Below are positions 8,532 through 11,967 of a DNA stretch of 53,997 nucleotides, piece after piece. The stretch lies in assembly GCA_016280445.1 (NCBI GenBank), contig JAEEGS010000040.1, forward strand, positions 1 through 53,997, in the 5' to 3' direction. The notes beneath the pieces are model-generated. The model worked only from the letters and a program-made list of their open reading frames with translations, was not told where the DNA came from and did not search any database. The DNA is from Bacteroidaceae bacterium (lineage in GTDB: Bacteria; Bacteroidota; Bacteroidia; Bacteroidales; Bacteroidaceae). Positions within the stretch are counted from its first letter, which is position 1. Every line of letters starts with the position of its first letter. The position numbers were made by a program, and so were the translations under genes.

Positions 8532-9087
8532 TTTTTAAACAACGAATATGTCTAATTTTGCGAATAGTTCTTCTAAATGTCGTGAACGACAACTAATAAA
8601 AACGAATGTTGATGTTACATCAGAACCGGAAGCCTCTCAGCAACCAGACGAGTTTCGCCAAAGTTGATGAGAAGAGCCAAATTAGAGCCTGCAACTTTAG
8701 CATAGTTCAAAGCTTGGGCACGATGCATATCATCAAGTTCTGTAACAGCTTTTAGTTCAACTATTATCTTGTCGTAACAGATAAAGTCTGGGATGAACGT
8801 TGCTGAAAGGGTATTTCCTTTATAAACAGCATGGATTTCTACTTCACGCTGAAAGGGTATCCCCTTTTCTTGAAACTCAATTGCCAGAGCCTCTTGATAC
8901 ACCTTCTCCGTGAATCCACGACCAAGAGCATTATGCACATTCATTGCTGCTCCGATAATCTCGTAAGATTCCTGGGGACATATCAAATCTTTCCGTTGAG
9001 TTTCCATTGCCATTCGATTCTATTCATCGCCGCATGCGGCATTACACCAACTATTCGACTGATTCGAGAAATTCGTTGTTGTTAAAA
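8532..9087 (-). mobile_element. Putative nuclease-encoding unit 1 (GxxExxY gene between imperfect inverted repeats)
   Basis: Left end 8532-8569 and right end 9049-9087 form an imperfect inverted repeat: about 20 of 27 positions match in the inner part, including a shared terminal CGAATAGTT. Inside each end, at nearly the same distance, is a small hairpin: GTCGT-GA-ACGAC at 8579-8590 and GCCGC-AT-GCGGC at 9029-9040. The hairpins differ in sequence yet both pair. A degenerate ATTCGATTC / CGAATG flank continues inward. The unit fills the whole space between korB and korA and holds one gene. No target-site duplication could be defined by eye. Confidence 0.5.
8615..9013 (-). CDS. GxxExxY protein, PD-(D/E)XK nuclease superfamily
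   Basis: The 132-residue protein carries the family-naming motif in GRGFTEKVYQEAL (near residues 32-44) and a PD-(D/E)XK core: IPDFICYDKIIVELKAV supplies the PD and, ten residues on, ELK. The C-terminal half includes the usual HRAQALNYAKVAG and ALLINFGE segments. Family members are assigned to the PD-(D/E)XK nuclease fold, but their target is not established. The start may be ATG 9013 or the in-frame ATG at 9007. It lies between korA and korB in the same orientation, with only 74 bp on one side and 73 bp on the other, and both flanks are inverted-repeat sequence. It is related to, but clearly divergent from, the protein at 11050-11481. Confidence 0.9.
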   Translation of the reverse strand: MAMETQRKDLICPQESYEIIGAAMNVHNALGRGFTEKVYQEALAIEFQEKGIPFQREVEIHAVYKGNTLSATFIPDFICYDKIIVELKAVTELDDMHRAQALNYAKVAGSNLALLINFGETRLVAERLPVLM

Positions 9088-10938
9088 CTACTTGTTGATT
9101 ATCTCTGTAAATGCCTCCACAAGTTCGCTGACCACGAAGGGCTGGCCCTTCACCTGGTTGAACTGCTCGGGTACGAAGTTGTCGACTTTCATGCGGAGCC
9201 AGCCGGCGAGTTGACCCATGTTCTGTTCGGCGACAACCACCTTCTTGTACTTCTTCAGCACCTCAGCCGTGTTGGCAGGCAGCGGGTTGATGTACTTGAA
9301 GTGAGCGAGTGCCACCTTCTTGCCAGCAGCACGGAGTTCGTCCATCGCTGCGTGGAGGTGTCCGTAAGTGCCGCCAAAGCCTACGATGAGGAGGTCGGCA
9401 TCGTCCTTGTCGCCCAGCACCTCAAGGTCTGGCACCTGGATTTTGTTGATTTTCTCCTGACGCAGACGAGTCATCAAGTCGTGATTCTCAGGGTCGGTGG
9501 AGATAGCACCCGTCTTGTTGTCCTTCTCCAATCCGCCGAGGATGTGCTGGAAGCCTTCGCGACCAGGTACTGCCCAGTAGCGCACGCCTGTCTCTGGATT
9601 GCGGAGATAGGGTGCCCAAGAGCCCTTCAGTTCTTCTGGAACGTATGGTGGGTTGATGGCTGGATAGTTGGCCAGGTTTGGCAATTTGAAGGCTGCAGAG
9701 CCGTTGGCAACGTAGGCATCAGTCATGAGGATGACGGGGGTCATGTGTTCCAGCGCCATCTTGGCTGCGGCGTATGCAGCATCGAAGCAATCGGTGGGCG
9801 AGGTGGCCGCAATCACCGGCATCGGGCTTTCACCGTTACGGCCGAAGAGTGCCTGCAAGAGGTCTGTCTGCTCCGACTTCGTGGGAAGACCCGTAGCAGG
9901 GCCACCACGCTGCACGTCGAGCACGACGAGCGGCAACTCCATGATGACCGCGAGGTTCATCGCCTCACTCTTCAGACAGATGCCGGGGCCAGATGTGGAG
10001 GTCACACCCAATGCGCCCGCAAATGATGCGCCTACTGCCGAGGCACATCCGGCAATCTCGTCCTCACACTGAACGGTAGTGACGCCCAGCGACTTATGCT
10101 TGGAGAGTTCGTGCAGCACGTCGGTGGCAGGAGTGATGGGATAAGAGCCGAGATAGAGTTTCAGGCCTGCCTTCTCAGCGGCAGCGATGAAACCGTATGC
10201 GGTGGCCTTGTTGCCCGTGATGTCCATATAGCGTCCAGGCACCTTGTTTTTCGTCTCGATGCGATAGACGTTTGCCACGCTGCTGTGCGTGTTGTGTCCG
10301 TAGTCGTAACCTGCCTGAATCACCTTGATGTTGGCCTCAGCCACACCTGCCTTCTTGGCAAATTTCTCCTTGAGGAAGTTGAAGGCGATGTTCAGGTCGC
10401 GGTCGAAGAGCCAGCACACGAGGCCGAGGGCGAACATGTTGCGGCACTTCAGCATCGCCTTAACGTCCATACCCGAATCGGCCAAGCAGTCCTTCACCAT
10501 CTGCGTGATAGGACAGGCAATCACCCGGTCGGGGTCGATGCCCATCTCGCCGAGGTAGTCCTCTGTGGCGAAGGCCGCCTTCTTCAGGTCGGCAGGGCCG
10601 AACGAGTCGGTATCGATGATGATGGCAGCGCCTGGTTTGGCATACTTGTACTGTGTCTTCAGCGCAGCTGCGTTCATAGCCACGAGCACATCGCACTTGT
10701 CGCCGGGTGTGTACACCATGTCGGCACCGATGTGCACCTGAAAACCGCTCACGCCCGTCAGCGAGCCTTGGGGGGCGCGGATGTCGGCTGGATAATCTGG
10801 AAAAGTACTGATACTGTTGCCCACGGTGGCTGACACCGTGGAGAAGATGTTTCCGGCCAACTGCATGCCGTCGCCAGAATCACCTGAGAATCGAACCGCC
10901 ACTTCGGCCAGTTCCTTCACTTCCAATTTTTCTGCCAT
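9088..10938 (-). CDS. korA: 2-oxoacid:ferredoxin oxidoreductase, fused gamma-alpha subunit
   Basis: The 616-residue protein fuses the gamma domain (about residues 1-190, with VRFSGDSGDGMQLAGNI near the N-terminus) to the alpha/pyrimidine-binding domain (from about residue 230, with GSYPITPATDVLHELS, VQCEDEIAGCASAVGASFAGA and TSTSGPGICLKSEAMN). This is the usual architecture of the Bacteroidota Kor/Vor-type enzyme. Partnered with KorB it converts a 2-oxoacid and CoA to acyl-CoA with reduction of ferredoxin, linking central metabolism to low-potential electron carriers. The ATG at 10938 follows an A/T-rich leader. The nearest good promoter on this strand lies at 11613-11644, beyond the second GxxExxY unit, so korA may be read through that unit. 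Confidence 0.95.
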   Translation of the reverse strand: MAEKLEVKELAEVAVRFSGDSGDGMQLAGNIFSTVSATVGNSISTFPDYPADIRAPQGSLTGVSGFQVHIGADMVYTPGDKCDVLVAMNAAALKTQYKYAKPGAAIIIDTDSFGPADLKKAAFATEDYLGEMGIDPDRVIACPITQMVKDCLADSGMDVKAMLKCRNMFALGLVCWLFDRDLNIAFNFLKEKFAKKAGVAEANIKVIQAGYDYGHNTHSSVANVYRIETKNKVPGRYMDITGNKATAYGFIAAAEKAGLKLYLGSYPITPATDVLHELSKHKSLGVTTVQCEDEIAGCASAVGASFAGALGVTSTSGPGICLKSEAMNLAVIMELPLVVLDVQRGGPATGLPTKSEQTDLLQALFGRNGESPMPVIAATSPTDCFDAAYAAAKMALEHMTPVILMTDAYVANGSAAFKLPNLANYPAINPPYVPEELKGSWAPYLRNPETGVRYWAVPGREGFQHILGGLEKDNKTGAISTDPENHDLMTRLRQEKINKIQVPDLEVLGDKDDADLLIVGFGGTYGHLHAAMDELRAAGKKVALAHFKYINPLPANTAEVLKKYKKVVVAEQNMGQLAGWLRMKVDNFVPEQFNQVKGQPFVVSELVEAFTEIINK

Positions 10939-10975: not shown

Positions 10976-11565
10976 CTCCTGCGACACATTCTGTGTCTTG
11001 GAAAAACGATAATTGCCGATAATTAACGATAATTTGTTCCGATAATTTTTTAGTTTTGTACGTAGTGGTGGAGATTCTCTTTGGAGAGTAGGACATAGCG
11101 ATTCCCCTCTTCATCATACACGTAACGCTCCGCATGAAAATGGTCTTCTCCATAATTGACCAATATCCCATATTTCAATTTCGTGATGCGCAAGTAGTTA
11201 AAGAGTTGAGCACGATGTTCTGATGTCAGTTGACTAACAGACTTGAACTCCACAATCATCTCCTGGCTATAGAAATCTGCCACATAGGTCTTTTGCATCT
11301 TTTTACCTTTGTAATAAGTGTGAAGCACCTTTTCTCGGTAATAGGGAATGCCGCGTTCCTCCAATTCCATTGCCATCGCCTCCTGGTAGAGCGGTTCTTC
11401 CATCCCAAACCCCAACTCATTGTACACCTCCATCGCGGCACCAACAAGTTCGTACATCCGCATATACTCTTCTTTGGTCATCTCTACTATCAAAATTATC
11501 GGAACAAATTATCGTTAATTATCGGCAATTATCGTTTTTCCGAGCCACCAAAGGTGGCAAAGGAG
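10976..11565 (-). mobile_element. Putative nuclease-encoding unit 2 (GxxExxY gene between 50-bp inverted repeats)
   Basis: The ends 11001-11050 and 11491-11540 are inverted copies of each other with 49 of 50 positions matching. Each end contains CGATAATT four times. Just outside each repeat is a hairpin: GACACA-TTC-TGTGTC at 10983-10997 and GCCACC-AAA-GGTGGC at 11544-11558. These differ in sequence while preserving the pairing, and each is followed outward by CTCCT/AGGAG. The GxxExxY frame fills the space exactly: its stop codon overlaps the left repeat at 11050 and its ATG is 9 bp from the right repeat. The architecture is that of a small mobile unit whose only gene is a PD-(D/E)XK nuclease. 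Confidence 0.6.
11050..11481 (-). CDS. GxxExxY protein, PD-(D/E)XK nuclease superfamily (second copy)
   Basis: The 143-residue protein has GxxExxY in the form GMEEPLYQEAM and a nuclease core ADFYSQEMIVEFKSV (D, then EFK). It also has the LTSEHRAQLFNYLRI and GILVNYGED segments shared with the family. It has a longer C-terminal tail than the 8615-9013 protein. A TTG-initiated frame reaches 11493, but the ATG at 11481 (MTKEEYMRMYELVG) is the better start. The gene lies on the same strand as korA and would be co-transcribed from the promoter at 11613-11644. It is bounded directly by 50-bp inverted repeats. The biochemical role is unknown. Confidence 0.88.
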   Translation of the reverse strand: MTKEEYMRMYELVGAAMEVYNELGFGMEEPLYQEAMAMELEERGIPYYREKVLHTYYKGKKMQKTYVADFYSQEMIVEFKSVSQLTSEHRAQLFNYLRITKLKYGILVNYGEDHFHAERYVYDEEGNRYVLLSKENLHHYVQN

Positions 11566-11612: not shown

Positions 11613-11644
11613 CAAAGTTACGTTTTCTTTTCATTTTGACCAAA
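11613..11644 (-). promoter_or_regulatory. Promoter for the leftward GxxExxY-korA-korB transcript
   Basis: Read on the minus strand, TTTG (11644-11641), a 20-base spacer and TAACTTTG (11620-11613) followed by CA match the Bacteroidota consensus TTTG-N19/20-TAnnTTTG well. The predicted start is near 11606. No comparable promoter is seen between unit 2 and korA, so this is the likely original kor promoter. Confidence 0.7.
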
Positions 11645-11725: not shown

Positions 11726-11967
11726 CATTCCACAGCCTCGAAACCCCTCCTTCCACTGCCGCCCTTACGGCACTTCCACTACCGCTCCGTCATTCCTTCC
11801 ACAGCCTCAACGGCGGTGTGACTCACACCGGTAGGGTCGGTGTGACTCAGACCGAGGGGGTCGGTGTGACTCACACCGTTTTCGAGGTAGTGGAAGGGGC
11901 GTGAGGGAGGTGGTGGAAGTGCCGTAAGGGTGGCAGTGGAAGAAGTAAATTGGAGGCTGTTGAAGAA
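11726..11967. repeat. Intergenic three-dyad palindromic element, copy A
   Basis: Three 15-bp dyads of the form GGTGTGACTCACACC lie at 11815, 11839 and 11863, so the period is exactly 24 bp. They are enclosed by inverted arms: an inner CTTCCACAGCCTC versus GAGGTAGTGGAAG, and an outer 30-bp pair (11750-11779 with 11913-11942) with 29 matches. A further CCACAGCCTC / GGAGGCTGTTG pair lies outside. With the promoter of GH127 this accounts for most of the 650-bp gap between 11482 and 12129. Copies B and C are at 39349 and 48917. Confidence 0.85.

Follow-up and report, generated by a model that had tools for sequence, protein, structure and literature searches.

A gene for a small GxxExxY nuclease stands between two inverted arrays of a short motif in the window, the whole stretch of 53,997 nucleotides of Bacteroidaceae DNA (contig JAEEGS010000040.1, from a rumen-type bacterium) that was analysed. 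This first unit is probably the nuclease-bearing member of a REPIN-like repeat family with ties to the GxxExxY nuclease. Beyond this one locus, the data suggest a little-noticed bacterial repeat family that is tied to a GxxExxY-type nuclease.

The kor units and their nucleases

The first-pass annotation had described a nuclease gene enclosed by 50-bp inverted repeats, each with four copies of CGATAATT, and the enclosure and the four copies per arm are borne out by an inverted-repeat search and by shuffled controls. The length is not, because the inverted repeat runs on through the outer hairpins to a CTCCT end, which makes each arm about 74 nt long (Table 1). The two arms, placed by the search at 10976-11049 and 11492-11565, are 89% complementary with 442 nt between them (the gene without its stop codon runs over 11053-11481), and they pair with a local score of 58, compared to a maximum of 15 in 30 shuffles of their own flanks. 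Copies of CGATAATT start at 11007, 11017, 11027 and 11040, a spacing of 10, 10 and 13 bp, and are mirrored in the other arm. The reading frame fills the interior, as had been stated; its longest listed version begins at TTG 11493, but the start common to relatives is the ATG given in the table. The description of hairpins that differ in stem sequence and still pair fully also held, and in the relatives that make up the protein group of the first unit the stem sequence again changes with pairing kept. The unit lies between the promoter-like sequence and korA with its gene in sense, probably within the 5' leader of the kor operon.

Table 1. Positions of the two GxxExxY units and of adjacent host features in the window
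Feature	Position	Strand	Remarks
Arm downstream of first gene	10976..11050	-	CTCCT end, hairpin, four CGATAATT copies at 11007-11047
Outer hairpin GACACA-TTC-TGTGTC	10983-10997	.	0/100 shuffles of own window reach the stem score
First GxxExxY / PDDEXK_3 (Cas4-like) nuclease gene, 143 aa	11050..11481	-	ATG 11481, stop 11050-11052
Arm upstream of first gene	11491..11565	-	Inverted copy, four CGATAATT (as AATTATCG, 11494-11534), CTCCT end
Outer hairpin GCCACC-AAA-GGTGGC	11544-11558	.	0/100 shuffles reach the stem score
Promoter-like sequence, Bacteroidota type (putative)	11613..11644	-	CAAA and CAAAGTTA on + strand
korA, 2-oxoacid:acceptor oxidoreductase alpha subunit (presumed)	9088..10938	-	Host gene for site comparison
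Upstream arm of second unit	9014..9087	-	CGAAT array, internal hairpin GCCGC-AT-GCGGC
Second GxxExxY gene, 132 aa, between korA and korB	8615..9013	-	Profile matches
Downstream arm of second unit	8533..8607	-	CGAAT array, hairpin GTCGT-GA-ACGAC

Another large inverted repeat (11728-11964, with 118-nt arms that match at 74% and lie 1 nt apart) adjoins the kor promoter-like sequence upstream and holds three 24-bp copies of CGGTGTGACTCACACCG-type palindromes. A second unit is found between korA and korB, with inverted arms of a motif different from that of the first unit and with the hairpin inside the array.

The assignment of the encoded protein to the PD-(D/E)XK nucleases, also made in the first-pass annotation, agrees with profile searches (PF13366 PDDEXK_3, E 2.2e-32; TIGR04256 GxxExxY, E 6.8e-34), and both window proteins pass the curated cut-off for these two profiles only. 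An alignment of 98 diverse members (of 101 references listed) has E, Y, D, E, K, Q and Y as invariant residues, or GxxE..D..ExK..QxxxY, a set which we take to be of the Cas4/RecB type and to form the putative active site. The predicted fold (pLDDT 94) has SSO0001 (4ic1, E 4.7e-4), which we take to be a Cas4, as its nearest solved structure, followed by lambda exonuclease. Weak matches to the Pfam families Cas_Cas4 and phage endonuclease I were obtained for 37 and 13 of the 98 proteins, respectively, and no transposase family is among the 22 families listed for them at E 0.1. A weak sequence match to T7 endonuclease I (E 0.026) was not relied on. With the second window protein as query, eight plasmid records out of 72,556 matched, six with a length of 0.4-1.6 Mb and the other two of 25 and 42 kb. 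No match came from 50,697 phage records, and none of the members of a separate alignment was confirmed to lie in a viral contig, so that we set aside a phage-borne element.

Comparison of 30 korA loci, drawn from matches in 43 of the 45 genomes of the genus, shows presence and absence of the unit upstream of korA in related species, a point that supports the reading of the first-pass annotation. By tblastn, a GxxExxY gene lies upstream of korA in 5 of these loci (genomes G000, G011, G014, G030 and G041) and between korA and korB in 9; at the kor sites of the remaining loci, which represent most relatives, none was found, and in a few the gap holds other sequence. The two 41-nt arrays of the leader unit are identical to each other in G000, G041 and G014 and differ at 2 positions in G030. 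Differences between species in the left arm are mirrored in the right arm in 6 of 6 cases for G000/G030, 4 of 4 for G014/G030 and 2 of 2 for G000/G014, with two extra differences in the right arm of G030 only. The arms of this unit have changed motif in concert in G000, G014 and G030. Synonymous divergence between the enclosed genes of these three genomes is high (dS at least 2.8, or undefined), with a dN/dS near 0.04 for the pairs that allow a value; among nine gene pairs, dN/dS is 0.03-0.06 in six, dS is undefined in two, and one pair is identical. Nine korA-korB genes are adjacent in protein tree order; at this one place their arms are of ACGAAT, ACGGATT or CACAGATT type. A tenth, from G024 (L033), groups with other proteins, which means that the korA-korB site was hit more than once or that the gene was replaced.

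Arm motifs across the genus and the phylum

PF13366 has matches in 35 of the 45 genomes of the genus (0-7 per genome) and in 151 of the 296 genomes of a phylum sample. Merging of duplicates gave 95 and then 94 distinct genus units, which were ordered by protein tree and had their flanks read, 93 of them with enough flank. This set omits frames of at least 500 aa, short or stop-containing fragments, and some full-length places with lower PF13366 scores (for example G035:C1, G001:C48, G014:C42, G037:C4, G024:C44 and G002:C50); the seven loci L005-L011, from named contigs, coincide with records of genus-set genomes. By local alignment, an inverted flank score of at least 16 was reached by 70 of the 93 units, with 23 below it; in direct orientation 31 of the 93 did so, and of 465 mispaired flanks 24. 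Fixed 6-mer counting was a weaker test than this alignment. The same score was reached by 18 of 30 loci in inverted and 7 of 30 in direct orientation in the phylum set, a non-random set of the best 30 loci of a longer match list, and by 19 of 150 mispaired flanks. Eight units on plasmid or chromid records, 3 inverted and 4 direct, are a small set that gives the rule of inverted arms no support.

Most genus units have inverted arrays of an 8-11 bp motif that adjoin the gene, and the motif differs by protein clade: C(G/A)ATAATT, AAAAATA(T/A)AA, AAAACARR, (C)ACGAATT, ACGGATT, CACAGATT, CACAGAGAA, CATGAATTAT and others. A similar motif, CACAGAG, lies beside the gene in Bernardetia, and in Treponema single copies of CACGGATT do. 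Only 12 of the 74 units with an inverted score of at least 16 over longer flanks have a significant outer hairpin on each side, so that we set aside the hairpin as a universal part of the units.

Among the 66 genus units with arms (arm score at least 18), and after removal of 91 same-site pairs, the Spearman correlation of arm similarity with protein distance is -0.379, and 0 of 999 permutations were as low. Arm similarity exceeds 0.5 in 70% of the different-site pairs with a protein distance below 0.5 (n=33), and in at most 8% of the pairs in each of the more distant classes. The arm motif follows the protein clade, also at different genomic sites. The first-pass annotation had named the same ends around GxxExxY genes elsewhere as support for mobility, and within the genus, genes of the protein group of the first unit do have C(G/A)ATAATT arms next to four or more different flanking sequences. 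The gene is in sense with the neighbouring longest open frame downstream in 84 of 89 and upstream in 70 of 91 genus units.

Two observations concern single units. The flanks of two phylum units (L204 and L219) form long direct repeats with scores of 104 and 66, possibly tandem duplications. Units seem to decay in place, as there are split or stop-containing GxxExxY genes (G029:C28:10649, G043:C9:22662-23002 and G039:C4:95904-96201).

Gene-less pairs and their sites

Ends without other copies in any genome, which according to the first-pass annotation would speak against a mobile unit, are not what the genomes contain. Gene-less pairs with the ends of the first unit occur in its own genome (L043, L044, L308-L310, among others), and relatives have many, including two with zero spacer (L236, L250); in G014 there is an outward arrangement of gene-less arms (L229, L256, L257). 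The motif of another unit of the same genome, L004, has 54 pattern matches there and 28 in the near relative G011, some of which overlap, and 0-7 in each of the 43 other genomes. Many of these matches are array-hairpin-array elements, with three and a half in a row at L304.

For three motifs, gene-less arms were counted in the 45 genomes after subtraction of the units' own arms. Carriers of a unit of the respective type have more of them: a mean of 6.0 in 8 carriers vs 0.97 in 37 others for CGATAATT (p 1.7e-4), 19.0 in 5 vs 0.7 in 40 for CACAGAAA (p 4.6e-5), and 8.9 in 8 vs 0.43 in 37 for GCGGCAAGCCGC-AAAAATA (p 4.6e-6), in tests that ignore phylogeny, count related and hence non-independent genomes, and use carrier classes made after seeing the arms. 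Carriers were assigned by arm motif for CGATAATT (with the CAATAATT variant) and GCGGC-AAAAATA (with G026 counted for a partial gene), and partly by protein kinship for CACAGAAA, where G022, G036 and G040 have only related motifs. Strict carriers number 4 (mean 10.0 vs 1.07, p 1.1e-4), 2 (39.5 vs 1.02, p 0.0045) and 6 (10.3 vs 0.64, p 1.1e-4) for the three motifs, respectively, and the reversed patterns had 0 matches in all 45 genomes. Gene-less pairs are commonest where a resident GxxExxY unit has that motif. Exceptions are G007 and G043, with 25 and 6 CGATAATT arms and no gene of that type detected (in G007 in an assembly that is 83% complete), and the carriers G008 and G019, 2 of the 8, with zero CGATAATT gene-less arms by the pattern used. 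In the genome of the window, CGATAATT clusters avoid open frames (0 of 14 vs 142 of 320 random points), and CACAGAAA clusters are not clearly depleted in them (6 of 20 vs 99 of 280).

A 23-nt sequence, AACCTTTAGYTCGRCGKAGYCAA, is found inside or next to arrays of more than one motif type, with 22 occurrences in 18 distinct contexts among the fetched loci (L299:1105, L004, L043, L106, L121, L165, L182, L229, L255, L257, L259, L290, L302, L303 and L312); L299 has a similar array both with and without it, and its mini-stem shows paired variation (GAC-GGA-GTC or GGC-GTA-GCC). Some AAAACA-type pairs (L180-L184, in G030 and G007) seem to be nested in another dispersed inverted repeat, with GTGAGTTCGRTATAAGA or similar on one side and the complement on the other.

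Elements of different motif share an intergenic site in related species (L274 and L044; L137 and L144/L146; L125/L129/L130 and L008). Next to a terminator-like hairpin, G000 and its near relative G011 share one intergenic position for pairs that differ in motif (CGATAATT and CACAGAAA). G011 has an AAAACA-type gene unit at the L137 site, where G014 and G015 have a gene-less pair of CATGAATT type; neither is present there in G000 and the other loci compared. Downstream of one particular gene, a place identified by eye is occupied by AAAAATA-type units in three genomes (G036, G040 and G043) and by a CAATAATT-type unit in G019. Either hot spots or selection for harmless places could account for such sharing. 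Reading by eye of the kor sites, the L137 and L082 sites, and L044/L274 revealed no general target duplication, with one possible 7-bp duplication (AAATTAT, L137 vs L142) among the sites read, and no movement event was seen among the sites and genomes compared.

Model, rival explanations and meaning

The first-pass annotation had proposed a minimal mobile unit in which a nuclease replaces a classical transposase. Of this, presence and absence at kor and the occurrence of the ends elsewhere stand, and a self-moving nuclease transposon is not supported. Mobility is partly supported: it is mainly the gene-less pairs that are dispersed, and gene-bearing units often keep one site across species. 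Since the numerous elements are gene-less inverted pairs, the better fit is REPIN-like dispersal tied to a nuclease in residence, and not a classical transposon in which the transposase has been exchanged. No consistent target-site duplication was found at the sites read, and gene-bearing units often occur at one site in several species, as if inherited, which also speaks against such a transposon.

We infer a nuclease that recognises the arms of its own unit and has a part in the copying or homogenisation of the pairs. In the model that we favour, each family would consist of short inverted arm pairs dispersed over the chromosome and of a GxxExxY gene inside one pair, with arms in which some three or four motifs of 8-11 bp are arrayed in phase, joined in some groups by a hairpin. 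The protein, a putative minimal Cas4/RecB-like PD-(D/E)XK nuclease encoded by a chromosomal gene, would bind to the phased array, with its hairpin, of the matching type and cut at the palindrome, either as a cruciform or as a single-stranded hairpin at the replication fork, and repair or replication may then copy the pair to new sites. The gene itself would usually be inherited in place, in sense within host transcription units, and would rarely change site.

A minimal nuclease transposon, in which the arm-gene-arm unit excises or copies itself to insert elsewhere and gene-less pairs are its deletion derivatives (MITEs), would account for sites without the unit and for genes with C(G/A)ATAATT arms that lie 5' of korA in five genomes and beside other sequences in G019, G008 and G001. 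However, no consistent target duplication was found at the sites read, several units keep one site across species (the nine korA-korB genes even stand together in tree order), and gene-bearing copies of one type are few per genome where gene-less ones can be many, so that we consider this explanation unlikely. Less likely still is homing, in which the nuclease cuts existing gene-less pairs centrally and repair copies the gene in. The position of the gene at the centre of the palindrome and the zero-spacer gene-less pairs of the same arm type (L236, L250) would fit, but no pair of the same motif is gene-less in one species and gene-bearing in another at the few sites compared, and homing leaves the spread of the gene-less pairs unexplained.

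The arms might instead act as operators or terminators, both for the nuclease gene and for operons of the host, with the nuclease in the host's service. Such autoregulation or transcript structure agrees with units in sense with their neighbours, with the hairpins and with strong purifying selection; what it does not predict is that an inverted array also lies downstream of the gene, or that gene-less pairs matching the resident unit are numerous, and we find it quite improbable. The least probable account regards the pairs as MITEs of an unrelated transposase, with the nuclease gene a captured passenger, given that the arm motif tracks the nuclease clade at different sites and that, for three motifs, gene-less arms go with the type of nuclease that resides in the genome.

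The closest parallel to the repeat family proposed here is the REPIN/RAYT system. REPINs, as described in the sources cited, consist of two inverted short repeats with a variable spacer and are dispersed and clustered, and each RAYT type has one chromosomal enzyme gene beside the same repeats, with more repeats where the gene is present and no occurrence on plasmids (PMC3116915, PMC8049555). The GxxExxY system likewise has dispersed inverted pairs of short repeats and a gene that is flanked by the same repeats and correlated with their number, apart from G007 and G043. Unlike RAYT, an HUH Y1 transposase, the enzyme here is a Cas4-like PD-(D/E)XK nuclease; the arms are phased arrays of 8-11 bp motifs, unlike REPINs; and GTAG, CGTC and their complements, which tag REP sequences beside the hairpin, are absent from both arms of the first unit of the window. 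With an enzyme of another superfamily, the GxxExxY system falls outside the REPIN/RAYT family, though it appears to work like one.

The enzyme resembles Cas4/RecB-like QxxxY nucleases such as SSO0001 and lambda exonuclease in its fold and in the residues E, D, E-x-K and Q-x3-Y. In Cas4, the motifs are GxxE, D, E-x-K and QxxxY, and four cysteines hold an iron-sulphur cluster. The first window protein has zero cysteines, which makes a four-cysteine cluster of this type impossible, and the second has one; unlike Cas4, the window proteins are without this cluster and their genes are embedded in inverted arrays. Rpn / PD-(D/E)XK family transposase proteins are PD-(D/E)XK nucleases linked to mobility, but GxxExxY belongs to another Pfam family. 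Terminal inverted repeats around an enzyme gene and presence or absence at sites are shared with insertion sequences and transposons. In type III toxin-antitoxin systems the tandem repeats are confined to one side, upstream of the toxin gene; we set such systems aside, since GxxExxY arrays lie on both sides and are inverted. The BrickBuilt MITE of Porphyromonas gingivalis is also short and intergenic, with terminal inverted repeats and internal repeats; its terminal repeats resemble those of known IS elements, and the word nuclease is absent from the main text of its description (PMC4596501). A MITE of a known IS such as BrickBuilt was set aside, as the ends differ.

In the literature searched, mainly open-access journal papers, the name GxxExxY is rare, in one case mentioned in passing, and no paper was found that links it to repeats. 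The present evidence gives this common family, so far without a role, a concrete and testable partner in its own arm array. We see an even balance for and against the broader proposal that GxxExxY, present in about half of the sampled Bacteroidota genomes and in several other phyla, is a second, independent enzyme class that makes and maintains REPIN-like populations; these would be stand-alone Cas4-like nucleases whose DNA specificity coevolves with palindromic phased-array targets, with several mutually specific nuclease-repeat populations per genome. If this is true, REPIN-type repeat populations have also arisen with a different enzyme superfamily. A large class of short palindromes in Bacteroidota would find its explanation in the link to GxxExxY, and the many pairs of nuclease and motif would be a natural data set for the evolution of DNA specificity in small nucleases.
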